Assembly (NCBI RefSeq): GCF_004341165.1
Contig: NZ_SLZR01000007.1
Location: 1 to 64,000 of the forward strand
Direction: 5' to 3'
Source: Reinekea marinisedimentorum
GTDB lineage: Bacteria > Pseudomonadota > Gammaproteobacteria > Pseudomonadales > Natronospirillaceae
DNA length: 64,000 nucleotides
Position numbers and translations under genes: made by a program. How positions within the stretch are numbered: position 1 is the stretch's first letter; every line of letters begins with the position of its first letter. This document shows positions 24,499-57,451 of the stretch, piece after piece. A model generated the notes under the pieces. That model had not been told where the DNA came from, made no database searches, and saw nothing but the letters and a program-made list of their open reading frames with translations.

Positions 24499-25560
24499 AT
24501 GAGTTCGGTAACGAAAAGAATTGGTGTTCTGACTGCAGGCGGTGATGCGCCGGGGCTTAACGCTGCGTTAAGAGGGCTGGCCAAGGCGGCTCAGGATAAC
24601 TACGGCATCGAAATTGTCGGCTTCTACGATGGCTACAAAGGCCTGGTGGAAAACAACGCCCGGCTGATGGACCGCTCCGATTTTTCCGGCATTCTGCATG
24701 AGGGTGGTTCGTTTCTGCGCAACTCCCGAGAGCGTCCGTTCAAAGACGAAGAGAAAGTCAAAAAGATGGTCGAAAACTACCACGCCTGGAACCTCGATTG
24801 CCTGGTGGTGCTCGGCGGTGGCGGCACCAATAAGCGCGGCTACTGGCTTACCGAATACGGCCTGAACGTGATTGGCCTGCCGAAAACCATCGACAACGAC
24901 ATTTACGGCACCGATATCACCTTTGGTTTCCACTCTGCACTGGAGTTCTGCACCGATGCTGTGGACCGCATTCACACCACGGCCGCCTCGCACCAGCGTG
25001 TGATTCTGGCCGAGATTATGGGTAACTCCGCCGGCTGGCTGGCGCTGTATGCCGGAATTGCCGGCGGTGCCGATGCCATCATCCTGCCGGAAATTCCGTA
25101 CGATATTCACAAGCTGAAAGATCATGTGGATAAACGCATGAAGGGCTCCGATTCCAAATTCTGCGTCATCGTCGTCGCCGAAGGGGCCCGCACCATGGAA
25201 GAAGCCGACCTGACCAAAAAACAATTCAAGAAAAAGCGCGCCAAAGAAGGCATCAGCGCCGCACACCGGGTGTCTGAGCAACTGAATGCCATTTCTGACT
25301 ATGAATCCCGCGTCTCCGTACTCGGTTATTTGCAGCGTGGTGGCAGCCCAACCGGCTACGACCGCGTGCTGGCCACTCAGTTTGGCGTGAAAGCCGCCGA
25401 GTTGCTCTACAAAGGTGAATACAACCAGCTGGTGGCGGCGCATGGCCTGGATGTTATCGCCGTGCCGCTGGCCGATGTTGCCGGTAAGACCAAGTTTGTA
25501 CCGAAGGATCATCTGGCCGTGGTTTCGGCCAAACAGACCGGTATTTGCTTTGCGGACTAA
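24499..25560 (+). CDS. 6-phosphofructokinase, PfkA superfamily with atypical phosphate-donor site
   Basis: A 353-residue phosphofructokinase. G-G-D-A-P-G-L-N opens the fold, P-K-T-I-D-N-D gives the catalytic aspartates and M-G-N-S-A-G-W the later loop. The donor-site motif reads L-G-G-G-G-T-N-K. The aspartate of G-G-D-G-S, which helps bind magnesium in E. coli PfkA, is therefore glycine here, and K replaces G in P-G-T-I-D-N-D as in PPi-dependent enzymes. ATP or pyrophosphate as donor cannot be decided. ATG 24499 was preferred to a TTG at 24472; GAAGAGG precedes it. Confidence 0.9.
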   Translation: MSSVTKRIGVLTAGGDAPGLNAALRGLAKAAQDNYGIEIVGFYDGYKGLVENNARLMDRSDFSGILHEGGSFLRNSRERPFKDEEKVKKMVENYHAWNLDCLVVLGGGGTNKRGYWLTEYGLNVIGLPKTIDNDIYGTDITFGFHSALEFCTDAVDRIHTTAASHQRVILAEIMGNSAGWLALYAGIAGGADAIILPEIPYDIHKLKDHVDKRMKGSDSKFCVIVVAEGARTMEEADLTKKQFKKKRAKEGISAAHRVSEQLNAISDYESRVSVLGYLQRGGSPTGYDRVLATQFGVKAAELLYKGEYNQLVAAHGLDVIAVPLADVAGKTKFVPKDHLAVVSAKQTGICFAD

Positions 25561-25601
25561 CGCAAAATTTGCGCTATTGGAGTGCGCGGCAGGTTGCTTG
25601 C

Positions 25602-25618
25602 TGTGCTTCAATGGTGCT
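25602..25618 (+). promoter_or_regulatory. Candidate NtrC enhancer half-palindrome
   Basis: TGTGCTTCAATGGTGCT keeps the right half of the NtrC consensus (TGGTGC) and part of the left. It lies about 90 bp upstream of the sigma-54 promoter, the usual range. The left half is poor, so this is tentative. Confidence 0.35.
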
Positions 25619-25707
25619 TAAATTTAACCGTCGTTGAATTTTTCTGCTTGGTCAGGTTTTAAAATTGACGGCGTTAAAACAACCGCTTAGCGATTTTTTG
25701 CATTGAC

Positions 25708-25723
25708 TGGCACACTGGTTGCT
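25708..25723 (+). promoter_or_regulatory. Sigma-54 promoter of the guanidine operon
   Basis: TGGCAC, five bases, then TTGCT matches the -24/-12 consensus (TGGCACG-N4-TTGCW) with one change. The predicted start, near 25734, would give a leader of about 225 nt that contains the whole ykkC riboswitch. Confidence 0.75.
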
Positions 25724-25794
25724 AAATGCTGATTGTCGCTCGAGAGTAATCTCCGCAGCCGCTCAGGTTGCGATGACCACAATTTATTAAATAG

Positions 25795-25893
25795 ACATCT
25801 AGGGTTCCGGCTGCAGGTTTGCAGTGACTGGTCCGAGAGTTGTCAACCTCACTTCGAGGTCACACGGAGGGATAAAAGCCCGGGAGACTAGAC
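25795..25893 (+). promoter_or_regulatory. Guanidine-I (ykkC) riboswitch
   Basis: The conserved ykkC segments occur in order: CTAGGGTTCCG (from 25799), ACTGGTCCGAGAG (25827-25839), ACACGG-AGGGATAAAAGCCC and CGGGAGA (25862-25887). This aptamer binds guanidinium and turns genes on. After it, GAGA-CTA-GACC-ATGTT-GGTC-AGA-TCTC (25884-25911) can form a second hairpin, a candidate expression platform; no T-run follows, so control may be at translation or by another route. Confidence 0.93.
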
Positions 25894-25959
25894 CATGTTG
25901 GTCAGATCTCTCGCGCTGAAGACCGAATGTGAACTCAAACCCAAAAGGTGAGGTTAACC

Positions 25960-27036
25960 ATGAAAAAACTGCTACGCCCTCTTAGTAAGAAAATCATCAC
26001 CGGCACACTGGCTGCCGTTACGACCTTCGGCGCATCTTTTCCTGCTGCTGCTCAAGACCACTTTCAACTGGCCTGGACCATCTACGTTGGCTGGATGCCC
26101 TGGGATTACGCAGCCGCTGAAGGCATTGTGGATAAGTGGGCCGATAAATACGACATCAGCATCGATGTGGTGCAGATCAACGATTACGTTGAATCGATTA
26201 ACCAGTACACCGCCGGCCAGTTTGACGCCACCGTGATGACCAATATGGATGCTCTGACCATTCCTGCTGCCAGCGGTGTGGATTCTACTGCGTTGATTGT
26301 CGGTGACTTCTCCAACGGTAACGACGGCATTGTGCTCAAGGGCAATAAAACCCTGAGCGATATTAAAGGCCAGCAGGTCAACCTGGTGGAGCTGAGTGTT
26401 TCTCACTACCTCCTGGCACGCGGGCTGGAATCGGTTGGTATGGCCGAGCGCGATGTCAAAGTCGTGAATACTTCCGATGCCGATCTGGTCGCGGCGTTCA
26501 GCAGTAAAGATGTCACCGCAGTCACCACCTGGAACCCGTTGCTGAGTGAAATTACCGCGATGCCAAATACCAGCAAGGTCTTTGACTCTTCGCAAATCCC
26601 GGGTGAAATCATCGACCTTTTGGTGGTGAATACCGACACGCTGGCTGAAAACCCGGCGCTGGGTAAAGCACTGACCGGCGCCTGGTATGAAATTATGGCC
26701 ATCATGTCTGCCGGTGATGCCGCCGCGGATGCTGCGAAAACCTTTATGGCGGAGGCTTCGGGTACCGACCTGGCCGGTTATAACGCCCAGCTGGCGTCCA
26801 CGAAGATGTTCTTCAGCGCAGCCGATGCCGTTGCCTTCACCAACAGTGACAGCCTGAAAAGCACCATGCAGAAAGTCGCTGAATTCTCTTTCGATCACGG
26901 CATTCTCGGTGACGGTGCACCGGACGCTGGCTTTATCGGCATTGAAACGCCCGCTGGTGTTTATGGTGACAGCGGCAATATTCAGCTGCGATTTAATCCT
27001 GAGTACATGGAAATGGCTGCTAAAGGCGAGCTGTAA
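25960..27036 (+). CDS. ABC transporter substrate-binding protein of the guanidine operon
   Basis: A 358-residue periplasmic binding protein of the nitrate/taurine/urea-carboxylase-associated type. It has a signal peptide (about 1-31, ending A-A-A-Q) and the ligand-domain start A-W-T-I-Y-V-G-W-M-P-W-D-Y. The gene follows the ykkC leader directly, with AAGGTGAGG before ATG 25960 (a GTG at 25948 is less likely). Relatives in such operons are annotated as urea transporters, but the riboswitches argue for guanidine or a guanidine-yielding compound. Confidence 0.9.
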   Translation: MKKLLRPLSKKIITGTLAAVTTFGASFPAAAQDHFQLAWTIYVGWMPWDYAAAEGIVDKWADKYDISIDVVQINDYVESINQYTAGQFDATVMTNMDALTIPAASGVDSTALIVGDFSNGNDGIVLKGNKTLSDIKGQQVNLVELSVSHYLLARGLESVGMAERDVKVVNTSDADLVAAFSSKDVTAVTTWNPLLSEITAMPNTSKVFDSSQIPGEIIDLLVVNTDTLAENPALGKALTGAWYEIMAIMSAGDAAADAAKTFMAEASGTDLAGYNAQLASTKMFFSAADAVAFTNSDSLKSTMQKVAEFSFDHGILGDGAPDAGFIGIETPAGVYGDSGNIQLRFNPEYMEMAAKGEL

Positions 27037-27079
27037 GCCTCAGTCTGACGTATTCAATTAAACTGCATCTGGAGACACT

Positions 27080-27910
27080 ATGACTCGGATTATTAATGCG
27101 CAGCCAAACCGCTACGGAAGGCTGTTACTGGGGCTGCTGCCGTTTATCATCCTGCTGGTAATATACATAGCTGCCTCTGATGCACGCCTGGCAGAAAACC
27201 CGAGTGACAAGCTGTTGCCGTCACTCAGCTCCTTTGCCGATGCCATCACCCGCATGGCGTTTGAGCCAAGCAAGCGCACCGGTGAGTACCTGTTCTGGGC
27301 CGATACGCTGGCAAGTGCGGTGCGCCTGGCGATGGGGGTCGGCATCAGCGCATTGCTGGGGCTGGTCATTGGTATCGCCAATGGCATGGTGCCTTATGTC
27401 CGTTCGCCTTTGTCGCCGCTGGTGACTGCTATTTCACTGATCCCGCCGATGGCGATTCTGCCCATCCTGTTCATTGTGTTTGGTTTGGGCGAGGTCTCCA
27501 AAGTTGTACTGATCGTCATCGGTATTTCTCCGGTGATTATCCGTGACATGCAATTACGCACCGACGCCTTACCCGCCGAGCAGCTGATTAAAGCCCAAAC
27601 ACTGGGGGGAAACAGCTGGCAGATTATTTTGCGGGTTGTGTTACCGCAAATACTGCCGCGGCTGATTGAGGCGGTGCGGCTCACACTGGGCAGTGCCTGG
27701 TTGTTCCTGATCGCTGCCGAGGCCATTGCGGCCACCGAAGGTCTGGGTTACCGGATCTTTCTGGTGCGCCGCTACCTGTCTATGGATGTCATTCTGCCCT
27801 ATGTGGCGTGGATTACGCTGCTGGCGTTCATGATGGATTATGCCTTGAAGCGCCTGTCGCTGTGGGCATTCCCGTGGTACCAGAAAGCCCAGGGAGGCCG
27901 CAATGACTGA
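27080..27910 (+). CDS. ABC transporter permease of the guanidine operon
   Basis: A 276-residue binding-protein-dependent permease with six helices and the EAA loop L-I-K-A-Q-T-L-G-G (about residues 170-178). It resembles the SsuC/TauC/NrtB class. GGAG lies before the ATG. It is 43 bp after the binding-protein gene and overlaps the ATPase gene by 8 bp. Confidence 0.92.
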   Translation: MTRIINAQPNRYGRLLLGLLPFIILLVIYIAASDARLAENPSDKLLPSLSSFADAITRMAFEPSKRTGEYLFWADTLASAVRLAMGVGISALLGLVIGIANGMVPYVRSPLSPLVTAISLIPPMAILPILFIVFGLGEVSKVVLIVIGISPVIIRDMQLRTDALPAEQLIKAQTLGGNSWQIILRVVLPQILPRLIEAVRLTLGSAWLFLIAAEAIAATEGLGYRIFLVRRYLSMDVILPYVAWITLLAFMMDYALKRLSLWAFPWYQKAQGGRND

Positions 27911-28727
27911 GCACCAGCCCATTATCGAAATCAAAAATCTGTGGAAAGAATACGGTGCCAATGTGGTGCTGGAAAAACTAAACCTCAGGGTCATGGCCGG
28001 TGAGTTTGTCAGCATTGTCGGTGCCTCCGGCTGCGGAAAAACCACCTTTCTGAACCTGCTGCTGGGCACCGAACAGGCCAGTCGCGGCGATATTCTGCTG
28101 GACGGTCAGCCGTTCGACCCGGAGCCGAGCGTAGAGCGTGGCATCGTGTTTCAGAAGTATTCGGTGTTTCCGCATCTGACGGCGATACAGAACGTCATGC
28201 TCGGTGAAGAGTTTGGCCACAGTGGCTTGGGCAGTCTGCTGACCGGGCGACTGACCGGTTCAGCAAAGCGGGATGCCCGCGACCGGGCCATGGCCATGCT
28301 GGAAAAGGTCGGCTTGGTTCAGGCCGCGAACCGCTATCCCAGTGAACTCTCCGGCGGTATGCAGCAGCGTTTGGCCATTGCTCAGGCACTGCTGAAACAG
28401 CCGCGTATTCTGTTGCTCGATGAGCCTTTCGGCGCGCTCGACCCGGGCATCCGCAAAGATATGCACAGCCTGATCCGTGAGCTGTGGCAAGAGCAGCAGT
28501 TGACGGTGTTTATGATCACGCACGATCTGAGCGAAGGCTTTGAGCTGGGTTCGCGGTTGTGGGTGTTTGACAAACCGCGCATCGACCCACAAGCCCCTGA
28601 GCGCTTTGGTGCTCAGGTCACTTTTGATATTCCCTTAAACAAGCCGGGAGAAAAACAGCGGCAGTTCGATCTGGTGCGCCAGTCGGCGACGCTGGCTTCC
28701 GGTGCTTCTTCGGAGGTTCAACCATGA
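27903..28727 (+). CDS. ABC transporter ATPase of the guanidine operon
   Basis: A 274-residue ATPase of the nitrate/taurine class. Walker A is G-A-S-G-C-G-K-T-T, the signature is L-S-G-G-M-Q-Q-R, Walker B is I-L-L-L-D-E-P-F-G-A-L-D and the switch histidine is in M-I-T-H-D-L. It overlaps both neighbours (8 bp and 4 bp), pointing to tight coupling with the first DUF1989 gene. Confidence 0.93.
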   Translation: MTEHQPIIEIKNLWKEYGANVVLEKLNLRVMAGEFVSIVGASGCGKTTFLNLLLGTEQASRGDILLDGQPFDPEPSVERGIVFQKYSVFPHLTAIQNVMLGEEFGHSGLGSLLTGRLTGSAKRDARDRAMAMLEKVGLVQAANRYPSELSGGMQQRLAIAQALLKQPRILLLDEPFGALDPGIRKDMHSLIRELWQEQQLTVFMITHDLSEGFELGSRLWVFDKPRIDPQAPERFGAQVTFDIPLNKPGEKQRQFDLVRQSATLASGASSEVQP

Positions 28728-29455
28728 GTTCAGAAATTTATACCGAACAATTCCCCGGGGCCAGTCACTGGTCACTGGTGGTCGGCGCAGGCCAAACGTT
28801 GCGCTTCACCGATGTAGAGGGCGGCGCCAACCTCAGCCTGCTGTTCTACAATCCGCGCAACCTGCTGGAGCGCTATAACGCGCCCGATACTCTGAAGTGT
28901 CAGCACACCTTTAAGCTTTCAACCGGCAACTGCCTGTATTCGGATATGGGCCGCATTTTCTGTTCTATTACCCGTGACGATACCGGCTGGATCGACACCG
29001 TTGGCGGTCTGGCTAATAAGGCGAAGGTCGCCGCCAAATGGGGCGAGCGTGACTACCAGAGCGCGCACAACCAGTGGAAACAAAACGGCCACGACAGCCT
29101 GCTGGTGGAAGTGGCGAAGTATGGTTTAGGTAAGCGTGATCTGGCGGCTAACTTGAATCTGTTCAGCAAGGTTGCGACCGATGACGAGGGCAATCTTGTT
29201 TTCGCCGAAGGGCATTCCAAAGCCGGCGACAGCATCGAATTGCGCTTCGAAATGGAAACGCTGGTAGTGCTGACAACCTGTCCGCACCCGATGAATCCGG
29301 CCACTGAGTATCCGTTCCGGCCGGTGGCTATGGCGTTACTTAATGCCGACCCGGTCAGCGCCGATGATGCCTGCCTGAACCACCGCCCGGAAAACGGCCG
29401 TGGTTTTGAAAATAACCGTCGCTACAACGCGGCCGTTCAGCACAGCCACTGCTAA
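28724..29455 (+). CDS. Carboxyguanidine deiminase subunit (DUF1989, UAAP1 type)
   Basis: A 243-residue DUF1989 protein of the larger, UAAP1-type class, formerly called urea carboxylase-associated protein 1. With its partner it removes ammonia from carboxyguanidine, giving allophanate. The motifs [10 protein letters not shown] and [10 protein letters not shown] carry the probable metal-site residues. Assignment as one half of the CgdAB pair rests on gene order and the known family role. Confidence 0.88.
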
Positions 29456-29465
29456 GGAGCCGAGA

Positions 29466-30104
29466 ATGATTCAGGAAAGTTCACTTAACCCGCAAAATGC
29501 CGTCATGCGTGATGTTGTTCCAGCCGGTGACTACTACATGAAGGTGGTCAAGGCCGGGCAAACGCTGCGCATTCTGGATATGGAAGGCAACCAGGCTGCA
29601 GACACCCTTTTTTACAACGCCAATGACCCGGCCGAAAGCTACAGCGCGATCGATACCATTCGCGAGCAGGGCAACGTGTACCTGACCGCGGGCAGCCAAA
29701 TTTTATCGAATGAAGGCAACCTGATGCTGACCATCGTGGCCGATACCTGTGGCCGTCACGATACGCTCGGCGGCGCCTGCGCAACGGAAAGCAACACTGT
29801 GCGTTATGCCATCGACAAAAAACACATGCACGCCTGCCGTGACAGCTGGCTGCTGGCCATTGCCGAGAACGAGCAGTTTGGTATGACCAAGCGCGACATC
29901 GTGCATAACATCAATTTCTTTATGAATGTACCGATCACCCCCGAAGGCGGATTGACCTTTGAAGACGGCATCAGCGCACCGGGTAAGTATGTTGAGCTGA
30001 AGGCCGAAATGGATGTCATCGTGCTGTTGTCCAACTGTCCGCAGCTGAACAATCCCTGCAATGCTTACAACCCGACACCGGTTGAAATGATCGTCTGGGA
30101 TTAG
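29466..30104 (+). CDS. Carboxyguanidine deiminase subunit (DUF1989, UAAP2 type)
   Basis: A 212-residue DUF1989 protein of the shorter, UAAP2-type class. It parallels its neighbour: [22 protein letters not shown] and [11 protein letters not shown]. It should form the heteromeric deiminase with the preceding product. AAGGAG (29454-29459) overlaps the upstream stop and places the start at ATG 29466. The next gene is separated by 91 bp holding a second guanidine riboswitch. Confidence 0.88.
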
Positions 30105-30129
30105 TTGTTTAACAGATTCTGAGTTGGGT

Positions 30130-30177
30130 AGGGGACGACCCCTTAAACACCCAAACATTCCGCTGGGACGACCCGGC
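30130..30177 (+). promoter_or_regulatory. Guanidine-II (mini-ykkC) riboswitch inside the operon
   Basis: Two hairpins with identical ACGA loops: AGGGG-ACGA-CCCCT (30130-30143) and GCTGGG-ACGA-CCCGGC (30162-30177), 18 nt apart. Paired stem-loops with ACGR loops are the definition of the guanidine-II class. The second hairpin ends 5 nt before the AGGT ribosome site of the carboxylase gene (ATG 30196), so it probably controls translation of that gene. Confidence 0.88.
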
Positions 30178-30195
30178 TATTCAGGTAACCAATTC

Positions 30196-33100
30196 ATGTT
30201 TGCAAAAGTTCTGATTGCCAATCGTGGTGCGATTGCGCGCCGGGTGATCCGCACCCTGCGGCAAATGAATGTCAAAAGTGTCGCTGTTTACAGCGAAGCT
30301 GATGCCGACAGCCTGCATGTCATCGAGGCGGACGAAGCCTATTCGCTGGGCGAAGGTGCGGCCGCACAAACCTATCTTGATCAGCAGAAATTAATCGATA
30401 TTGCCGTACGCTGCGGCGCGCAGGCGATTCACCCGGGTTACGGTTTTCTCAGTGAAAACCCCGGCTTTGTGCAGCTCTGCGAAGAAAACAGCATCTCCTT
30501 TATTGGCCCAACACCGGATCAGATGAATGATTTTGGTCTTAAGCATCGCGCCCGCGAGCTGGCCGAAAAAGCACAGGTCCCGCTGTTGCCGGGCTCCGCA
30601 TTACTGACCGATTTAGCGCAGGCGCAACTCGAGGCGACACGCATTGGCTATCCGGTGATGCTGAAGAGCACCGCCGGTGGTGGCGGTATTGGGATGCAGC
30701 GTTGCAACAGCGAGGCTGAACTGAACGATGCGTTCGATTCCGTCCGTCGGCTGAGTGAAAACAACTTCAGCAATGGCGGCATCTTTCTGGAAAAATTCAT
30801 CGAGCAGGCGCGCCATATTGAGGTGCAGATTTTCGGCGATGGCAACGGCCAGGTCTTAACCCTGGGTGAGCGTGACTGTTCCGCTCAGCGACGCAACCAG
30901 AAGGTGATTGAAGAAACCCCGGCGCCGAACCTGAGCGATGAAACCCGCGCCGCGCTTGCCGATACCGCCCGTCGTCTGGGTGCCAGCGTAGAATACCGAA
31001 ATGCCGGCACCGTTGAGTTTGTGTTAGACCAGCAAACCGAGCAATTTTATTTTCTGGAGGTGAACACCCGCCTGCAGGTAGAGCATGGTGTAACCGAGGA
31101 AATCTTCGGTGTTGATTTGGTTCAGTGGATGCTTGAACTGGCCGCCGGCGACCTGCCGCCACTGGATCAGCTGGCTGCCCGTCTGCAGCCAAAGGGCCAC
31201 GCCATTCAGGTGCGTCTGTACGCCGAAGATGCCAATAAAAACTTCCAGCCCTGTGCTGGTTTGCTCAGTCACGTCAGCTGGCCGCAAATGGCGGGCTTGC
31301 GTATAGAGCACTGGATTGAAGCCGGGGTAGAAGTGTCACCGTTTTTTGACCCGATGCTGGCAAAGGTGATCTTTTATGCCGAATCGCGCGAGGCGGCGCT
31401 GGCCGGGTTATCCGCAGCGCTGACGCAATCGGAGGTCTATGGCATTGAACACAACCTGGGCTACCTGCATCAGCTGCTGAACAGCGAAATTGTGCGCAGC
31501 GGCAAGGTGCTGACCCGCAGTTTGAACGACTTTGTTTATCAGCCCGCTACCTTCGATGTGATTGCCAGTGGCACACAAACCACGCTTCAGGATTACCCCG
31601 GCCGCAGCGGCTACTGGGATATCGGCGTGCCGCCCTCCGGGCCAATGGATTCGCTGAGCTTCCGCCTGCTCAACCAGCTGCTGGGTAACGGCGAGCGTGC
31701 AGCCGGTTTGGAAATGGTGATCAGCGGACCAACACTGAAATTCAACCGCGCTACCGAGATTGCCTTTGGTGGTGCCGCGATAGACGCCACGCTCGACGGC
31801 AACGCCGTCGCCCCGTGGACCGTGCTGACCATTGCGCCCGGCCAGACCTTGAAGCTGGGCCGCATCAGTGGTGCCGGTGCCCGTTGTTATCTGGCCGTTG
31901 CCGGTGGCGTTCAGTGTCCGGATTATCTGGGCAGTAAATCAACCTTCACCCTGGGGCAGTTTGGCGGTCATGCCGGCCGAGCGTTGCGTGCGGGTGATGT
32001 TTTGCATCTGAATGCCAGCGCAGCGCTGTCCGGGCACGGCGGTACGGCTTTGGAAAGCCCGCCGGCGATGCAATCCGACTGGCGTATCCGGGTCATTTAC
32101 GGCCCGCATGGCGCACCGGATTTCTTCACCGACGCCGATATCGAAGCCTTCTTCGATGCCGAATGGCAGGTGCACTTTAATTCCAGTCGTACCGGTGTGC
32201 GGCTGATTGGTCCAAAACCGGAATGGGCCCGCAGCGATGGCGGTGAAGCCGGACTGCACCCGTCGAACATTCACGACAACGCCTACGCCGTGGGGACCAT
32301 CGATTTCACCGGTGACATGCCGGTCATTCTGGGGCCGGACGGCCCAAGCCTGGGAGGCTTTGTTTGCCCGGCGACCATCATCAAGGCCGATCTGTGGAAG
32401 ATGGGCCAGCTCAAGGCCGGCGACAAGGTACGCTTCGTGCCGGTGGCGCTGGCCGATGCTGAACAGGCCGAGCGTGAGCAATTAGCGCAAATCTCTGCAT
32501 TAAACATTTCCGAAATGCCGATTCAGCCGGCGGCGATTACCACACCGGTACTGAAAACCCTGCCAGCCGAGCGTTATGGCGAAGAAGTGGTGTACCGGCC
32601 GAGTGGTGAAGATTTTCTGCTGGTCGAATATGGCCCGCAGCTGCTGGATATTAAGCTGCGCTTCCGCGTACATGCCCTGATGCTGCATCTGCAGGAGCTG
32701 AATTTGGCGGGTGTGCAGGAACTGACGCCGGGCATTCGCTCGCTGCAGATTCACTACAACAACCTGCAGTTACCGCAGGCGAAACTGCTCGACATTCTCG
32801 AACAGGCAGAAGCCGCACTGGGCGATATTGAGCAGCTCAGCGTGCCGGCGCGGGTGGTTCATCTGCCGCTCTCCTGGGATGACGAAGCGACCCGCCTGGC
32901 GATTAAAAAGTACGACGAAGTGGTGCGCAAAGACGCGCCCTGGTGCCCGGACAACATTGAATTTATTCGTCGTATCAATGGCCTGAATTCCGTTGACGAG
33001 GTGAAGCAGATTGTTTTCGACGCCAGCTATCTGGTGATGGGGCTGGGCGATGTTTATTTGGGTGCGCCGGTGGCCACACCGATGAATCCGTGTCATCGAC

Positions 33101-33819
33101 TGGTGACCACCAAATACAACCCGGCACGCACCTGGACACCGGAAAACGCCGTCGGCATCGGCGGGGCTTATCTCTGCGTGTATGGCATGGAAGGGCCGGG
33201 CGGCTATCAGTTTGTCGGTCGTACGCTGCAAATGTGGAACCGCTACCGTCGCACCGAAGCCTTTACCAAACCCTGGTTGCTGCGCTTCTTTGACCAGATT
33301 CGTTTTTATGAAGTGAGTGCCGACGAGCTGCTGGAGATCCGTCAGCAGCATCCGCGTGGTCAGTACCCGGTGCGTGTTGAGCAAACTGAGTTTTCCTTTG
33401 CGGAGTATCAGGCGCAACTGGAAGCACAAAAGGATGCGATCACCACCTTTAAAACCTGCCAGCAGCAGGCCTTTGAACAAGAACGCCAGCGCTGGGCCGA
33501 GAGCGGTCAGGCCAACTTTAAGGCCGACGCCCTGACCATTACCGAAGAAGCCGGCGAGCAACTGGGTGAAAGTGAAGTGGCGGTTGAAAGCCATGTCGCC
33601 GGCAACATCTGGCAGGTGCTGGTGAAACCCGGCCAGCAGGTGAAGGCCGGAGAAGTGGTGATGATTCTGGAAGCCATGAAGATGGAGCTGGAAGTCACCG
33701 CCACCGAGAGCGGTACGATAACCGCCATCAGTCAGCAGGCCGGTGCGCAGGTGCATGCCGGTCAGCGCCTGATGGTCATTAACACGACGATGCAACAAGC
33801 GAAGGAGGTCAGTGCATGA
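30196..33819 (+). CDS. Biotin-dependent guanidine (urea-type) carboxylase
   Basis: A 1207-residue carboxylase. Domains in order: biotin carboxylase (about 1-445, with G-G-G-G-I-G-M and E-V-N-T-R-L-Q-V-E-H), KipA/AHS2-like carboxyltransferase half (455-770, T-L-Q-D-Y-P-G-R-S-G-Y), KipI/AHS1-like half (800-1010) and a C-terminal biotin carrier (about 1135-1205, E-A-M-K-M). It makes carboxyguanidine, or allophanate if urea is used. N964 in P-M-N-P-C-H-R stands where yeast urea carboxylase has D (P-I-D-P-R-H-R), a change linked to guanidine preference. An upstream in-frame extension would run through the riboswitch and is rejected. Confidence 0.93.
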   Translation: MFAKVLIANRGAIARRVIRTLRQMNVKSVAVYSEADADSLHVIEADEAYSLGEGAAAQTYLDQQKLIDIAVRCGAQAIHPGYGFLSENPGFVQLCEENSISFIGPTPDQMNDFGLKHRARELAEKAQVPLLPGSALLTDLAQAQLEATRIGYPVMLKSTAGGGGIGMQRCNSEAELNDAFDSVRRLSENNFSNGGIFLEKFIEQARHIEVQIFGDGNGQVLTLGERDCSAQRRNQKVIEETPAPNLSDETRAALADTARRLGASVEYRNAGTVEFVLDQQTEQFYFLEVNTRLQVEHGVTEEIFGVDLVQWMLELAAGDLPPLDQLAARLQPKGHAIQVRLYAEDANKNFQPCAGLLSHVSWPQMAGLRIEHWIEAGVEVSPFFDPMLAKVIFYAESREAALAGLSAALTQSEVYGIEHNLGYLHQLLNSEIVRSGKVLTRSLNDFVYQPATFDVIASGTQTTLQDYPGRSGYWDIGVPPSGPMDSLSFRLLNQLLGNGERAAGLEMVISGPTLKFNRATEIAFGGAAIDATLDGNAVAPWTVLTIAPGQTLKLGRISGAGARCYLAVAGGVQCPDYLGSKSTFTLGQFGGHAGRALRAGDVLHLNASAALSGHGGTALESPPAMQSDWRIRVIYGPHGAPDFFTDADIEAFFDAEWQVHFNSSRTGVRLIGPKPEWARSDGGEAGLHPSNIHDNAYAVGTIDFTGDMPVILGPDGPSLGGFVCPATIIKADLWKMGQLKAGDKVRFVPVALADAEQAEREQLAQISALNISEMPIQPAAITTPVLKTLPAERYGEEVVYRPSGEDFLLVEYGPQLLDIKLRFRVHALMLHLQELNLAGVQELTPGIRSLQIHYNNLQLPQAKLLDILEQAEAALGDIEQLSVPARVVHLPLSWDDEATRLAIKKYDEVVRKDAPWCPDNIEFIRRINGLNSVDEVKQIVFDASYLVMGLGDVYLGAPVATPMNPCHRLVTTKYNPARTWTPENAVGIGGAYLCVYGMEGPGGYQFVGRTLQMWNRYRRTEAFTKPWLLRFFDQIRFYEVSADELLEIRQQHPRGQYPVRVEQTEFSFAEYQAQLEAQKDAITTFKTCQQQAFEQERQRWAESGQANFKADALTITEEAGEQLGESEVAVESHVAGNIWQVLVKPGQQVKAGEVVMILEAMKMELEVTATESGTITAISQQAGAQVHAGQRLMVINTTMQQAKEVSA

Positions 33820-35603
33820 GCACAGCCGTAACCGTTGCAGCAACGATTGCTGCATACCGAAGTGGGCAACTGACGCCTGCACAACACCTGAAAGCCAAAC
33901 TGGCCGCCGCGCGTGCAGACAGCACCAACAGCTGGATTGCGCTGATCAGCGATAGCCAGCTGGAGAGCTATCTCGCTGCGCTGGCAGATCATTCTGCGGA
34001 ATCCCTGCCGCTTTATGGCGTGCCGTTTGCCATTAAAGATAATGTCGATCTGGCTGGCTTACCGACCACCGCCGGTTGTAAAGACTATGCCTACCAGCCG
34101 GAAAGCACCGCCTTTGCTGTCGAAAAACTGATTCAGGCAGGCGCGGTGCCGCTGGGCAAAACCAACCTCGATCAATTCGCGACCGGTTTGGTGGGTACGC
34201 GCAGCCCATGGGGGGCTACTCACAACAGCTTTAACCCAGAGTACATTTCCGGTGGCTCCAGCGCCGGTAGCGCAGTCACGGTGGCAACCGGGCAGGTGTG
34301 TTTCTCGCTGGGTACCGATACAGCCGGTTCCGGCCGGGTGCCTGCTGCCTTCAATAATATTCTCGGCTTAAAGGCCAGCAAGGGTCGCATCAGCTGCAGT
34401 GGCGTGGTTCCGGCCTGTAAAAGCCTGGATTGCCTGACGTTGTTTGCACACACCGCCGAAGATTTAAGCCTGCTGCTGGCCGTAGCCGGTGAATACGATG
34501 TCAACGACTGTTACGCAAGGCCGGCAATGCCTGCGCCGACAGCGTTGAGCTCGCTTGCCGGTGCCAAAATTGGTGTGCCGCAGGCAAAGCAACTGGCGTT
34601 TTTTGGTAACCACAGCAACGAGCAATTGTTTGGCAAGGCTCTGCAGAGCCTGAAGGTGCTGGGAGCCGAGCTGGTTGAGATCGATTTTCAGCCGTTTTTG
34701 GATGCCGCCAAACTGCTCTATGAAGGCCCCTGGGTTGCCGAGCGTTATGCCGCCATTCAGGAATTTTTTGAGCAAGATGCCAGTCGATGCCTGCCGGTGA
34801 TTCAAACCATTATTGGGGGCGCGCAGGGAAAAACCGCCGTCGATGCCTTTAACGCAGCTTATAAACTGCAGCAATACAAGGTAATTTGTGACCAGCTGTT
34901 AAGCCAGGTGGATGTTATGGTGACCCCAACTGCCGGCTCGATATACACCATCGACGCTGTCAACGCCGACCCGATTACCCTGAACTCGGAAAACGGCTAC
35001 TACACCAACTTTATGAACCTGCTCGATTACGCCGCCGTTGCCGTGCCGGCGGGCTTTAACGACAGTAAATTGCCGTTCGGTATCACCCTGTTTGGCCCGG
35101 CCGGTTGCGATGACGCGCTGTTAAAGCTGGCCGGCCAATGGCAGCAGAGCCAGCAGTTACCGTTGGGTGCGACCGGTGAAGCGTTGCCGGCTGCGGCAGC
35201 GATAGCCGACGGTGCGGCGCTGGTCGAAGTGGCTGTTTGTGGCGCTCATCTGCAGGGCTTACCGCTCAATTCTCAGTTGCTGGAGCGTGGTGCAAAACTG
35301 AAGCAAGCCACCACAACCTCCGCTAATTATCGGCTGTTTGCGCTGGCGGGGGGCCCGCCGTTTCGCCCCGGTTTAATTCGTGATGAAACTGCTGGCCGGG
35401 CGATTGAGGTTGAGGTCTGGCAACTGCCGGTGGCGAGTCTGGGCAGCTTTTTAGCGGGTATTCCGCAGCCGTTAGGGTTGGGCAAGCTTGAGCTTGAGAG
35501 TGGAGCCTGGGTGACCGGTTTTATCTGTGAAGGCTATGCCATTGCGGATGCCCGTGAAATCACTGAATTTGGCGGTTGGCGGGGGTATCTGGCCAGCCAG
35601 TAG
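33816..35603 (+). CDS. atzF: Allophanate hydrolase
   Basis: A 595-residue amidase-signature enzyme that splits allophanate into ammonia and CO2. The Ser-cisSer-Lys triad is visible: K in F-A-I-K-D-N-V-D, then G-G-S-S-A-G-S and D-T-A-G-S-G-R. A C-terminal domain (about 470-595) of the AtzF type follows; its shape and length match the family. It overlaps the carboxylase gene by 4 bp and completes the guanidine-to-ammonium route. Confidence 0.95.
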   Translation: MSTAVTVAATIAAYRSGQLTPAQHLKAKLAAARADSTNSWIALISDSQLESYLAALADHSAESLPLYGVPFAIKDNVDLAGLPTTAGCKDYAYQPESTAFAVEKLIQAGAVPLGKTNLDQFATGLVGTRSPWGATHNSFNPEYISGGSSAGSAVTVATGQVCFSLGTDTAGSGRVPAAFNNILGLKASKGRISCSGVVPACKSLDCLTLFAHTAEDLSLLLAVAGEYDVNDCYARPAMPAPTALSSLAGAKIGVPQAKQLAFFGNHSNEQLFGKALQSLKVLGAELVEIDFQPFLDAAKLLYEGPWVAERYAAIQEFFEQDASRCLPVIQTIIGGAQGKTAVDAFNAAYKLQQYKVICDQLLSQVDVMVTPTAGSIYTIDAVNADPITLNSENGYYTNFMNLLDYAAVAVPAGFNDSKLPFGITLFGPAGCDDALLKLAGQWQQSQQLPLGATGEALPAAAAIADGAALVEVAVCGAHLQGLPLNSQLLERGAKLKQATTTSANYRLFALAGGPPFRPGLIRDETAGRAIEVEVWQLPVASLGSFLAGIPQPLGLGKLELESGAWVTGFICEGYAIADAREITEFGGWRGYLASQ

Positions 35604-35609
35604 CCGCGC

Positions 35610-35634
35610 AAAAAAAAGGCCGCATCAAGCGGCC
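35610..35634 (-). terminator. Terminator between the convergent guanidine and TRAP operons
   Basis: GGCCGC-ATCAA-GCGGCC (35618-35634) lies next to eight A (35610-35617), which is a U-run on the minus strand. It fits best as the terminator of the TRAP operon, about 100 bp past its last stop, and may also stop opposing transcription. Confidence 0.8.
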
Positions 35635-35731
35635 TGTCAAAGTTATCGCACTTCTTTAAATGGCTGCGCGGGCACCCCGAATGCATAGGGTGCTCGTGCG
35701 CAGCGGTTATTTCCCCCCAAGGAAATTCTGT

Positions 35732-36313
35732 TCAGGCGCTGGGTTCAGCCCCCGGTAAACCTAAGATAAATTTTCTGACCTCTACCAACACATCGATGAC
35801 CGAGTAAACCAGCATAATGAATGCGGAAACCGGCATGCAGGAGTAGAGAATCCACTGCTTAATCTGGAACACGGTGGTGACCTGATGCGTTCTCAGGGTC
35901 AGCTTCAGCGCAAACCAGAAGAAGATCGCCATGAAGGTGGCGGAAATCATCAGGATCAAAATGCGGTACAGGTGCTTAAGGCGGTCGTGCTTTAAGCGTG
36001 GGCTGATCCAGTCACCGACAGAAAAATGCAGCTTGGCGCACCACAGGGCCGCTGCGCCGTAGAAAACCAGCGCCGCAAAGGTGAGCTCGACCACTTCGTC
36101 GAACCAGTGAAACGAATTGATGGTCACAAAGCTGTTGATAAAGCCTGCAGCGCCCGCCAGTCCCTTCGCTTCGAGAAAGCTCACCAGATCATTAATCAGC
36201 CGCAGGCTGACATTGGCGACCAGCAACAGCCCTAAAATGCTGAACATGGTCATGGAAATAAAACGCAGAATGCGTTGCACCCAGCCGTCTATTTTTTTCG
36301 CTAAGGCAATCAT
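35732..36313 (-). CDS. TRAP transporter small membrane subunit (DctQ family)
   Basis: A 193-residue four-helix protein of the DctQ family, with F-H-W-F-D-E-V-V-E-L and a later L-W-C-A-K-L-H-F-S-V-G-D-W core. It links to the large permease to form a sodium-driven uptake system. It overlaps the large subunit gene by 1 bp. Confidence 0.9.
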   Translation of the reverse strand: MIALAKKIDGWVQRILRFISMTMFSILGLLLVANVSLRLINDLVSFLEAKGLAGAAGFINSFVTINSFHWFDEVVELTFAALVFYGAAALWCAKLHFSVGDWISPRLKHDRLKHLYRILILMISATFMAIFFWFALKLTLRTHQVTTVFQIKQWILYSCMPVSAFIMLVYSVIDVLVEVRKFILGLPGAEPSA

Positions 36314-37602
36314 TACATCGGTCCCATCAGCAGGTTAGGCAGGAACAGGGCAATGCCCGGTACAAAGGCGATCAGCAGTGTAATCAGGAAGATCATCAGC
36401 AGGTACGGCCACACCCTTCGTGCCAGCGCCGGCATGCCGACCTTGGCGAAGCTGTCCACCGCGAACAGGCACATCCCCACCGGTGGCGTCAGGTTGCCGA
36501 TCATGATCAGCAGCGTCATCACCACGCCGAAGTTAACCAGATCGATCTGGAACATCGTGGCGATCGGCATAAACAGCGGCAGGGTGATCAGGAAGATGGC
36601 GTTGCCCTCCAGAAACAGCCCCATGGTGAGCACGATGCCAATGATGATCCACATGACAATGGATTGCGTTGCGCCAAAGCTGACCAGTGTGGAGATCACC
36701 GCATCGGGAATTTTCTGATGAATGATCAGCCAGCCAAAGAAGTTGGCGGCGGCAATAATGAACAGCAGGCTGACCGATTGGGAAATGGATTTATAAACGA
36801 TATCCGGGATGGCTTTCAGCTTTAAATCTTTGTAATAGAAGCCGAGCAGCGCGGCGTACACACACACCACCACTGAAGCTTCGGTCGGCGTGAAGAAGCC
36901 GGTCATGATGCCGCCGACAATAATCACCGGTGCCATCAGTGGCCAGAACGCGCCGTTGAAGGCCGAAAAGCGTTCACGAATAGTGGCCTTGTGTTCATCA
37001 CGCGGGTAGTTGCGTCGTTTTGCCAGAATGCCGAGCGCCACCATCATGCCGATGCTCATTAAAATGCCGGGAATAAAGCCGGCCAGGAATAATCGCGCGA
37101 CCGAAACGCTGGTGATCGAGCCATACAAAACAAACGGAATGCTCGGCGGAATCACCGGGCCAATCACCGAAGAGGCGGCGACCAGTGTGGCCGAATCGGC
37201 AGGGTCATAACCCTGATCAACCATGGCCTTGTGTTCAATCTGGCCAAGACCGGCAGCATCGGCCACGGCCGAGCCGGACATGCCGGAAAAGATCACACTG
37301 GCAACAATATTCACCTGGCCGATGCCACCGGAAATGTGCCCGACCATGGCGCGGGCAAAGCGGAAGATACGGTCAGTAATACCGCCGGTGTTCATCAGGT
37401 TGCCGGCGAGAATGAAAAACGGGATGGCCAGCAGCGTAAAGCCGGTGGTGCCGTAGTACATGCGGTGCGGCAGCATGGCTAGCAGGCGCGCATCGCCCAA
37501 GCCGATAAAAAAGATGACCGAGGTTAAGCCAATGGCGACCACCACCGGAACGTTAATCAGCAGAAAAAAGATAAGAACGCCGAAAATATAAAGGGTCAAC
37601 AT
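36313..37602 (-). CDS. TRAP transporter large permease (DctM family)
   Basis: A 429-residue transporter with about twelve helices. DctM landmarks: P-F-F-I-L-A-G-N-L-M-N, M-S-G-S-A-V-A-D-A, V-I-P-P-S-I-P and F-F-T-P-T-E-A-S-V. It carries the solute inwards with sodium ions. It is preceded by a 77-bp gap with a stem-loop after the binding-protein gene. Confidence 0.95.
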   Translation of the reverse strand: MLTLYIFGVLIFFLLINVPVVVAIGLTSVIFFIGLGDARLLAMLPHRMYYGTTGFTLLAIPFFILAGNLMNTGGITDRIFRFARAMVGHISGGIGQVNIVASVIFSGMSGSAVADAAGLGQIEHKAMVDQGYDPADSATLVAASSVIGPVIPPSIPFVLYGSITSVSVARLFLAGFIPGILMSIGMMVALGILAKRRNYPRDEHKATIRERFSAFNGAFWPLMAPVIIVGGIMTGFFTPTEASVVVCVYAALLGFYYKDLKLKAIPDIVYKSISQSVSLLFIIAAANFFGWLIIHQKIPDAVISTLVSFGATQSIVMWIIIGIVLTMGLFLEGNAIFLITLPLFMPIATMFQIDLVNFGVVMTLLIMIGNLTPPVGMCLFAVDSFAKVGMPALARRVWPYLLMIFLITLLIAFVPGIALFLPNLLMGPM

Positions 37603-37630
37603 CCTGAACGTACCTTTAAATTTATGAAGC

Positions 37631-37658
37631 GGGTTCCGCCGATACTCGGGCGAAACCC
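37631..37658 (-). other. Intercistronic stem-loop between dctP- and dctM-like genes
   Basis: GGGTTCCGCC pairs with GGGCGAAACCC (9 of 10 pairs, about 7-nt loop). Without a T-run it is unlikely to terminate fully. Such structures often stabilise the binding-protein message so more of it is made than of the permease. Confidence 0.5.
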
Positions 37659-37679
37659 ATGGGCTTTAATTAACCGGTA

Positions 37680-38663
37680 TTACTTCACCGATTGGGTCAT
37701 TTCCATCCACTTATCGAAGTTAGCTGCCCCCACTTTCTTTTTGATCTGATCGTAGGCCGGGCCCATCATGGCCTGGAACGGGGCTAAATCGGGTTCATCT
37801 ATCTGAATGCCGTTGGCGCGCATATCGGCAATCTGCTTCTGCTCTTCGGCGCGCAGTAATTCGCGCATCAGCAGACGTGCGGCATCGGACTCCTCCTGAA
37901 CAATGACCTGTTGAGCCGGCGTCAGGCGGTTCCATGCATCCGCGGAAACCACATGCACCATAGAACTGTACAGGTAGTTGATGATGGAAATGTACTTCTG
38001 GCTTTCATACAGCTTCAGGTTGTAGATCACGCCGATCGGGTTTTCCTGACCGTCGACCACGCCCTGACGCATAGCCATGACCAGTTCGCTGAAGGAGATG
38101 GTTTGCACGTTTGCACCAATCGCCTGCATCGCTGCCTGATAGGTCATCGCTGGCGGCGTGCGGATTTTCAGGCCCTTAACGTCATCCGGCGATAGGATCG
38201 GCTTAACGGAGTTGGTGAGTTGGCGGAAGCCCCAATCCCAGCTGGAAAGGTAAACCAAACCAATCTTTTCCAGCTCGGGTGCGGCCCAGGCTTTAAACGG
38301 GCCATCGAGCACACGGTCGGCGTGTGCGGCGTTTTCCAGTGAGAACGGAATGGAGACGGTATCGAACAACGGCACATGTTTCGCCAGCTGATCCTGACCG
38401 GACAGGCTCATATCAATAACACCAAAGATAACCTGCTCCAGTACTTCTGGCGGGCTGCCCAAGGCGTTGTTCGGGTACAGTTCTACCTTCACATCACCGT
38501 TGGTGCGGGCTTCAACGTTTTTGGCGAACTGCATGGCGGCAATGTGGGAAGGGTGTTCTTCTGACCCGAAGTGACCCAGCTTCAATTCAACAGCCGAGAA
38601 GGCTGAAGATGCCCAGGCAAAACAGAGTGCAGAGACCAGCCCCTTCTTAAGCTTTGCGTGCAT
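37680..38663 (-). CDS. TRAP transporter substrate-binding protein (DctP family)
   Basis: A 327-residue periplasmic receptor. It has a signal peptide (about 1-23), then K-L-G-H-F-G-S-E-E-H-P, and the conserved arginine in G-L-K-I-R-T-P-P that holds a ligand carboxylate. The ligand is an organic or sugar acid. The UxuR/ExuR-like operators upstream suggest a hexuronate or a related alginate or pectin product, which is inference. AAGGAG precedes the ATG. First gene of the operon. Confidence 0.92.
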   Translation of the reverse strand: MHAKLKKGLVSALCFAWASSAFSAVELKLGHFGSEEHPSHIAAMQFAKNVEARTNGDVKVELYPNNALGSPPEVLEQVIFGVIDMSLSGQDQLAKHVPLFDTVSIPFSLENAAHADRVLDGPFKAWAAPELEKIGLVYLSSWDWGFRQLTNSVKPILSPDDVKGLKIRTPPAMTYQAAMQAIGANVQTISFSELVMAMRQGVVDGQENPIGVIYNLKLYESQKYISIINYLYSSMVHVVSADAWNRLTPAQQVIVQEESDAARLLMRELLRAEEQKQIADMRANGIQIDEPDLAPFQAMMGPAYDQIKKKVGAANFDKWMEMTQSVK

Positions 38664-56351: not shown

Positions 56352-56367
56352 TGGCACTGCCGTTGCT
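56352..56367 (+). promoter_or_regulatory. Sigma-54 promoter of the FNT-kinase operon
   Basis: TGGCAC, five bases and TTGCT fit the -24/-12 consensus, as at 25708. The predicted start, near 56378, gives a 230-nt leader. A GGTGCG half-site near 56268 is a weak candidate for NtrC binding. Confidence 0.75.
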
Positions 56368-56585: not shown

Positions 56586-56608
56586 GTGCTGATTAAAAGG
56601 AAATGAAT

Positions 56609-57451
56609 ATGGCTTATTTAGAACCGAAAGAATTTGTCACCAAGATGGTGGATGCCGGTGAACAGAAAATTTTCATGTCCACCAAAGATACCTTCATTCG
56701 TGCGTTTATGGCCGGTGCCATTCTCGCCCTGGCGGCGTTTTTCGCCATTACCGTGATTACCAATACCGGCAATGCACTGTTGGGTGCGGTGCTGTTCCCG
56801 GTCGGCTTTATTATGCTGTACCTGATGAAGTTTGATCTGCTGACCGGTGTGTTTACGTTGGTGCCACTGGCGGTGATTGATAAGCGACCGGGCTGCGATA
56901 TGAGCTCATTGCTACGCAACTGGGGCCTGGTGTTTTTGGGTAACTTTGCCGGTGCGCTGATGGTAGCGTTTTTTGCTTCGTTTATTCTGACTTACGGCTA
57001 CAACACCGATGGCGGTGCCGTTGCGGCCAAGGTGAGCACCATTGGTGAATCGCGTACGCTGGGTTACAAAGAACACGGCTTAGCCGGTTGGTTCACGATT
57101 TTTATTCGCGGTATGTTGTGTAACTGGATGGTATCGATGGGTGTGGTGGGTGCGATGATTTCAACATCGGCCGGCAGCAAAATGGCGGCGATGTGGATGC
57201 CGATCATGCTGTTCTTCTACATGGCATTTGAGCACTCAATTGTGAACATGTTCCTGTTCCCGTTCTCTATGATTATGGGTGGTGACTTCACCGTTGGCGA
57301 TTACTTCCTGTGGAACGAAATTCCAACGGCGCTGGGTAACCTGTTTGGTGGTTTCCTGTTGGTGGGAATGCCGCTGTACCTGACGCATGTGCGCACCAGT
57401 AAAGCGCGCAAAGCCGGCAAAAAGGCTGCTAAACCCGTAGCCGCGTTGTAA
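56609..57451 (+). CDS. Formate/nitrite transporter (NirC-like), copy 2
   Basis: A 280-residue six-helix FNT channel, with L-F-P-V-G-F-I, W-G-L-V-F-L-G-N-F-A-G and F-E-H-S-I-V-N-M-F carrying the central His. The C-terminus is Lys/Ala rich. I prefer ATG 56609 because AAAGG (56596-56600) is then 8 bases away; ATG 56603 is too close. It is under the sigma-54/ANTAR leader, which points to nitrite uptake for nitrogen assimilation. Confidence 0.92.
   Translation: MAYLEPKEFVTKMVDAGEQKIFMSTKDTFIRAFMAGAILALAAFFAITVITNTGNALLGAVLFPVGFIMLYLMKFDLLTGVFTLVPLAVIDKRPGCDMSSLLRNWGLVFLGNFAGALMVAFFASFILTYGYNTDGGAVAAKVSTIGESRTLGYKEHGLAGWFTIFIRGMLCNWMVSMGVVGAMISTSAGSKMAAMWMPIMLFFYMAFEHSIVNMFLFPFSMIMGGDFTVGDYFLWNEIPTALGNLFGGFLLVGMPLYLTHVRTSKARKAGKKAAKPVAAL

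Follow-up and report, generated by a model that had tools for sequence, protein, structure and literature searches.

Guanidine assimilation operons that carry riboswitches of two unrelated guanidine classes have been described before. In Vreelandella boliviensis both riboswitches of one such operon, with the same layout as the operon studied here, were analyzed by in-line probing, and the accessible text of that report states that the arrangement occurs "like in several other bacteria" (PMC12508155). The dissociation constants (KD) given there are 44 μM for class I and 93 μM for class II, only about twofold apart, and the larger difference between the two switches is that class II also binds methylguanidine. 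Guanidine strongly raises the proteins of this operon. The two-switch layout is also described, with citation of Sinn et al. 2021, for Raoultella terrigena, Erwinia rhapontici and Klebsiella michiganensis (PMC12186494). Here we analyze the first 64,000 nucleotides (nt) of contig NZ_SLZR01000007.1 of Reinekea marinisedimentorum, forward strand (the window), which contain a seven-gene guanidine operon with a guanidine-I (ykkC) riboswitch aptamer in its leader and a guanidine-II (mini-ykkC) element before the carboxylase gene.

As in V. boliviensis, class I stands at the head of the operon, class II lies between the deiminase genes and gca, and the genes are those of an ABC (ATP-binding cassette) importer, cgdA/B, gca and a hydrolase. 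An earlier reading of these letters without database searches (the sequence-only reading) was unaware of any account of precisely this layout, a statement that the published operons overturn. The dual-switch operon is a known and common design, of which that of Reinekea is one more example, and the possible importance of the locus lies in the reason for having two switches, rather than in the dual-switch layout itself. The explanation that we propose, and consider reasonably probable, is that of a guanidine-assimilation operon gated by both nitrogen shortage and guanidine.

Gene content and transcription unit

The NCBIfam models identify the seven genes, which lie on one strand from 25960 to 35603, as an ABC importer and the guanidine carboxylase pathway (Table 1), in agreement with the sequence-only reading. 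The carboxylase, the deiminase subunits CgdA and CgdB and the allophanate hydrolase all exceed the cut-offs of their models and are encoded on the same strand with short gaps, as expected for a guanidine carboxylase operon. The carboxylase model, TIGR02712, is itself named urea carboxylase; the neighboring deiminase genes and the riboswitches suggest that the enzyme would prefer guanidine over urea. Its start codon is ATG 30196, while CgdA probably starts at ATG 29466. Three junctions are overlaps (−8, −4 and −4 nt, the last between carboxylase and hydrolase), and the remaining gaps are of 43 nt after the binding-protein gene, 10 nt between CgdB and CgdA, and 91 nt before the carboxylase gene. 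A simple consensus scan of 25300-36400 gave no sigma-70-like site, against 5.3 expected, so no internal promoter is predicted, and the operon is likely one transcript carrying both switches, as the sequence-only reading had assumed.

Guanidine-I aptamer and the first ribosome-binding site

The aptamer scores above the gathering cut-off of RF00442 and matches model positions 1-107 of 107. The sequence-only reading had recognized it at 25795-25893, which is off by 5-7 bases. It would be expected to bind guanidinium and to make this operon responsive to the ligand. The guanidine-I class is usually described as transcriptional. Runs of four or more T are absent from the window leader; the aptamer is followed by a hairpin whose arms are GGGAGA and UCUCUC, and behind it comes GCGCTGAAG instead of T. 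In the minimum-energy fold the 5' strand of aptamer helix P3, AACCUCACUU, pairs with AGGUGAGGUU, the Shine-Dalgarno (SD) region of the binding-protein gene, and this pairing excludes P3. The folding energy of the leader (25840-25975) is −44.8 kcal/mol versus −30.6 kcal/mol for shuffled sequences (z = −4.28; 0 of 200 shuffles as good).

To place these elements among relatives we used the best 80 of 583 loci encoding a CgdA relative, which together with the window make 81 sources; some of the 80 loci stop short of the operon head. The P3 and SD strands change together, CUCCUCCA occurring with UGGAGGAG in Mangrovitalea and CCUUUUCC with GGAAAAGG in Marinobacter. This complementarity was quantified by a swap test, in which each P3:SD pairing is compared with pairings to foreign partners. 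From 73 guanidine-I matches we retained 57 leaders, leaving out 16 (four with no start found, the near-duplicates L075 and L128, and ten tandem, second-copy or uncertain cases); 7 of the 57 could not be parsed, and the remaining 50 fall into 34 groups named by genus or isolate. When P3 was kept and leaders were exchanged, 26 of the 34 groups had an own pairing that exceeded half of the exchanged ones (p = 0.0007); when the leader was kept and P3 strands were exchanged, this held for 25 of the 34 (p = 0.0016). Among the 28 gammaproteobacterial groups the numbers are 22 and 21, respectively. None of the foreign leaders gives the P3 strand of the window a better pairing than its own leader does. 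An earlier count over the 57 leaders, four rows of which were unparsed, gave 42 better than the median swap, and the expected number of P3:SD pairs is at least four in 42 of 69 leaders, a figure that has no shuffle control.

The guanidine-I riboswitch thus probably acts here on translation, because the leader lacks a terminator T-run and the P3 strand complements the SD region of the first gene, with covariation in relatives. Several observations weigh against this assignment. The groups of the swap test are related by descent, so that its p values are indicative; 8 of the 34 groups have an own pairing that does not exceed half of those with foreign leaders, and 11% of the P3 strands taken from other leaders match the window leader better than its own strand does. 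In addition, the fold with the hiding hairpin (25788-25975) has an energy of −61.4 kcal/mol, far below the −36.7 kcal/mol obtained with the aptamer pairs enforced. With such a gap the ligand could hardly undo the hairpin once formed, which implies that the choice is made during transcription, or that the enforced constraint is too crude.

The alternative, that guanidine-I acts on transcription, with termination in the leader being either intrinsic or dependent on Rho, and that guanidine-II adds translational control of the carboxylase, is unlikely in our judgement, though it deserves serious consideration. Action on an intrinsic terminator is what the authors of the V. boliviensis study presume, in the accessible text, for their guanidine-I (PMC12508155). 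Several relatives have the same hairpin arms as the window, GGGAGA and UCUCUC, before a T-run, and 16 of the 57 leaders contain a run of at least four T. In the window itself, on the other hand, the hairpin is not followed by T, and the P3 strand finds its best SD complement in its own leader. We rank the translational mode above the published terminator presumption with moderate confidence, and this probable translational platform of guanidine-I is an addition of the present analysis.

We also considered capture of the 3' strand of P3 by the leader, through pairing of GGUUACAC with GUGUAACC; in the window it is not significantly better than in shuffles (p = 0.225) and was not used as evidence. 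Of the 61 leaders that could be parsed (12 of 73 could not), 15 show pairing of this type at p ≤ 0.05 against shuffles. In L089, L094, L097, L099, L102, L108 and L135, GUGUAACC, complementary to the aptamer GGUUACAC, is found about 30-60 nt after guanidine-I, and the pairing could possibly form a second arm of the OFF fold.

A conserved sigma-54 site upstream of guanidine-I

The −24/−12 promoter that the sequence-only reading saw at 25708 is an exact match to the sigma-54 consensus, which occurs only once more in the 64 kb. If one mismatch is allowed, chance alone often yields such sites (mean 4.65 in 64 kb). Because the consensus is not rare, the case for this promoter rests on its position and on its conservation in relatives. 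A match with at most one mismatch is present within 400 nt upstream of 42 of the 73 guanidine-I matches, versus 1.2% of a background of 1460 stretches drawn at random from these loci, and with at most two mismatches in 54 of 73, versus 5.3%. Of these 54, 44 sit 64-111 nt before the aptamer, the window included. The other 19 of the 73 guanidine-I matches have no such site at two mismatches, which counts against the control proposed below.

Upstream of the promoter lies a site resembling TGCACYNNNNNRGTGCA, which we take to be the NtrC consensus. An NtrC-like site with up to three mismatches is found in 38 of the 54 loci that have a sigma-54 match, against 18.7% of the background stretches. The −24 and −12 elements have the right spacing, and the genome encodes both RpoN (517.7 bits) and NtrC (762.6 bits), each above its cut-off. 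These features suggest that the operon would be under NtrC control. A shallow literature search found nothing in print that links guanidine with sigma-54, RpoN or NtrC, which is weak evidence of absence. The conserved sigma-54 site upstream of guanidine-I is an addition of the present analysis, and it would tie guanidine use to general nitrogen control.

The guanidine-II element

The element before the carboxylase gene has the anatomy of guanidine-II, with ACGR loops 33 nt apart, GG/CC closing pairs, stems of 5 and 6 pairs and a short linker, and its second hairpin ends 18-19 nt before the carboxylase ATG. The mini-ykkC pair of ACGA hairpins claimed by the sequence-only reading is thus borne out in its anatomy, and the RF01068 match is significant (E = 0.014 in 10.5 kb, 2.7e-4 in 201 bases), so that the refuting case named by the sequence-only reading, a covariance model failing for one of the two elements, did not arise. 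The score, on the other hand, is 3.3 bits under the family cut-off and is not decisive; by this cut-off the element is formally no member of RF01068, and it is guanidine-II-like in this sense. The motif GGGACGACCC occurs twice in the 64 kb, both times in this element and with the same result when one mismatch is allowed, although two such matches are not rare alone (mean 2.8 in shuffles). The specificity comes from two ACGA loops at a spacing of 33 nt ahead of the carboxylase gene, since the strict two-hairpin finder, applied to both strands of the window and the 80 related loci (2.79 Mb), returned 59 matches on the plus strand and 0 on the minus strand.

A possible anti-SD strand for the carboxylase gene lies just upstream of the element, and its weak fold counts against it (11 of 200 shuffles as good, z = −1.65); inspection by eye of the relatives showed no shared anti-SD helix around guanidine-II, the folds being varied. 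In a Vibrio/Photobacterium group (L066, L067, L071, L075, L078 and L080) the SD just before the carboxylase ATG is AGGGACGA, which resembles the 5' half of a guanidine-II hairpin and could pair with the CCC strands of the hairpins; L070 has AGGGACAA.

Both switches are widespread. The covariance models for this survey were built on strand-oriented relatives from the window's order and on the window itself, whose elements are among the rows, so that its own model scores are not independent. Of the 81 sources, 67 have guanidine-I, 62 have guanidine-II as judged from the model or the strict motif, and 50 have both; in these 50, guanidine-II follows CgdA in 36, stands shortly before CgdB in 12, and lies further up in 2 (L085 and L106). 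Searching other genomes for both classes, as the sequence-only reading had suggested, gave a similar picture: a sample of 244 genomes of the window's order has guanidine-I in 70, guanidine-II in 76 (at E ≤ 0.02, partly below the cut-off) and both in 55, and 53 of the 70 guanidine-I genomes carry guanidine-I first with guanidine-II on the same strand within 10 kb.

Why two switches

The internal guanidine-II of the window occupies the widest gap of the operon. Across the loci in which guanidine-II follows CgdA, the gap before the carboxylase has a median of 93 nt (n = 45) and that before CgdB one of 9 nt (n = 34), while with guanidine-II further up these values are 16 nt (n = 13) and 112 nt (n = 7); with no guanidine-II the carboxylase gap has a median of 8 nt (n = 11, one of them 140 nt). 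Two loci, L103 (2819, 8065) and L124 (2772, 8017), each have two guanidine-I in the operon; the second precedes cgdB and takes the position that guanidine-II has in other loci. As the wide gap moves with guanidine-II, and as a second guanidine-I can take its place before CgdB, the pattern suggests that a translational switch is placed where translational coupling is lost, and that each coupled block would need its own switch. A second switch at the widest untranslated gap fits the anatomy with no appeal to set points. A riboswitch needs room, which weighs against this argument, since the gap pattern is partly built in and gives no proof of direction. For the idea that guanidine-I of the T-run type accompanies a lack of guanidine-II, a loose count of T-tracts gave 24 guanidine-I matches with and 22 without a tract where guanidine-II is present, versus 21 with and 6 without where it is absent, a comparison that is confounded by Marinobacter and uses a motif-only label that misses four loci found by the covariance model.

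A different reason for two switches would be separate set points, the idea of the sequence-only reading, or separate specificities, the importer and deiminase genes answering to guanidine alone and the carboxylase also to methylated guanidine or to a higher level. This reading, compatible with either mode of guanidine-I, seems to us quite doubtful. It draws on the KD values and the differing methylguanidine specificity reported for V. boliviensis, in the part of that paper available (PMC12508155), but a twofold difference in KD is small, and the class looks exchangeable in L103 and L124. Furthermore, in V. boliviensis mgdH and mgdL lie between gca and the hydrolase gene, unlike in Reinekea, where the overlap of carboxylase and hydrolase leaves no room for them. 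That the guanidine-II hairpins are non-functional and the operon has a single switch is very improbable: the sub-threshold RF01068 score and the 17 of 67 guanidine-I sources that showed no guanidine-II point that way and also weigh against a two-switch rule, but 35 other loci with guanidine-I have the same kind of element in the same place, and none of the 59 strict matches is on the opposite strand.

Proposed control of the operon

In the proposed mechanism, nitrogen shortage would lead NtrC and sigma-54 polymerase to start transcription at about 25735. The guanidine-I aptamer and the hairpin hiding the first ribosome-binding site would then be mutually exclusive folds of the leader. With no guanidine, AACCUCACUU would pair with AGGUGAGGUU and keep the binding-protein gene shut; guanidine would hold P3 inside the aptamer and leave this SD free. 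The importer and deiminase genes would be translated onwards through their close spacing and overlaps, up to the 91-nt gap, which would break the coupling. Within this gap guanidine-II would open translation of the carboxylase, to which the hydrolase would be coupled by the overlap.

A wider form of this proposal is that both switches are translational, each heading one coupled gene block, with transcription left to NtrC and sigma-54 as a nitrogen-AND-guanidine gate; that the number of switches follows the coupling breaks; that the P3 strand serves both as aptamer helix and as anti-SD; and that the sigma-54/guanidine-I pair is general in gammaproteobacterial guanidine operons. Taken as a whole this would go further than the locus, and we put it forward tentatively, as a proposal that may well prove wrong in one of its parts.

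Table 1 Features of the guanidine operon in the window, and tandem leaders in other loci (positions of the latter within each locus)
Feature	Position	Strand	Evidence
NtrC-like enhancer site TGCGCTATTGGAGTGCG	25570..25586	+	2 mismatches to TGCACYNNNNNRGTGCA; 138 nt upstream of −24 element
Sigma-54 −24/−12 promoter TGGCAC-N5-TTGCT, TGGCACACTGGTTGCT	25708..25723	+	exact match, no mismatch
Guanidine-I (ykkC) riboswitch aptamer	25788..25888	+	RF00442, 93.1 bits, cut-off 63, E 1.5e-15 in 64 kb
Aptamer P3 5' strand, proposed anti-SD AACCUCACUU	25845..25854	+	pairs with 25946-25955 in minimum-energy fold; swap test
SD region AGGUGAGGUU of binding-protein gene	25946..25955	+	sequence and minimum-energy fold
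Substrate-binding protein gene of ABC importer	25960..27036	+	TIGR03427, 561 bits, cut-off 334
ABC permease gene	27080..27910	+	TauC-like, under equivalog cut-offs
ABC ATPase gene	27903..28727	+	NCBIfam, under equivalog cut-offs shown
CgdB (UAAP1), carboxyguanidine deiminase subunit	28724..29455	+	TIGR03425, 323 bits, cut-off 206
CgdA (UAAP2), carboxyguanidine deiminase subunit	29466..30104	+	TIGR03424, 345 bits, cut-off 285; start read from sequence
Possible anti-SD UCUGAGU for carboxylase gene	30118..30124 (pairs 30179-30185)	+	minimum-energy fold, z −1.65
Guanidine-II (mini-ykkC) element	30127..30176	+	RF01068, 28.7 bits, cut-off 32, full-length match; strict two-hairpin motif
Guanidine-II ACGA loops	P1 30135-30138; P2 30168-30171	+	hairpins GGGGACGACCCC and CUGGGACGACCCGG
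Guanidine (urea-type) carboxylase	30196..33819	+	TIGR02712, 1841 bits, cut-off 1304
Allophanate hydrolase	33816..35603	+	TIGR02713, 780 bits, cut-off 511
Azospirillum tandem leaders, before cgdB	L107 7975-8231; L120 8055-8316; L130 2368-2626; L133 8002-8263		
Psychromonas sp. B3M02 tandem leader, before distant importer binding-protein gene	L073 2025-2316		

Neighboring features and tandem leaders

A TRAP-type transporter gene set (35732-38663, minus strand) converges on the guanidine operon, and behind it, at 35617-35635 on the minus strand, is a terminator-like hairpin followed by seven T. The second exact sigma-54 consensus of the window, at 56352-56367, stands about 235 nt before a gene of the formate/nitrite transporter family (56603-57451; family match under cut-off), which is followed by a PP2C phosphatase/Ser-Thr kinase fusion gene. 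This site may mark another nitrogen-controlled unit.

Five loci, four from Azospirillum and one from Psychromonas, have in a single leader guanidine-I and, within 150 nt after it, a guanidine-II-like hairpin pair (Table 1); a fifth Azospirillum locus, L116, gave no tandem leader by the same tests. The second element is below the Rfam cut-off, with 23.1 bits in L107, and that of L073 was not found at E 1 in one Rfam scan and had 19.1 bits (E 0.27) in another, its place being matched by contig arithmetic. These tandem leaders may be the most novel feature met, outside the finding in the window, since a 2022 survey saw, in its accessible text, a tandem arrangement for no guanidine class (PMC9481103).

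Comparison with known systems

The Reinekea operon resembles tandem riboswitches that serve a single ligand by two mechanisms, such as SAM-II/SAM-V for S-adenosylmethionine (PMC9481103, accessible text), in that aptamers of two classes for the same ligand lie on what is presumed to be a single transcript. It differs in that its two aptamers precede different genes and are separated by 4239 nt (4.2 kb) with five genes, which is not a tandem leader. As in the three enterobacteria, the importer and deiminase genes follow guanidine-I, and the carboxylase and hydrolase genes lie directly downstream on guanidine-II; the Reinekea host is not an enterobacterium, and the words sigma, RpoN and NtrC are absent from the review's text as available (PMC12186494). 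In the operon of V. boliviensis the class I riboswitch is presumed, in the available text, to be transcriptional (PMC12508155), whereas for class I of Reinekea a translational platform is the better supported.

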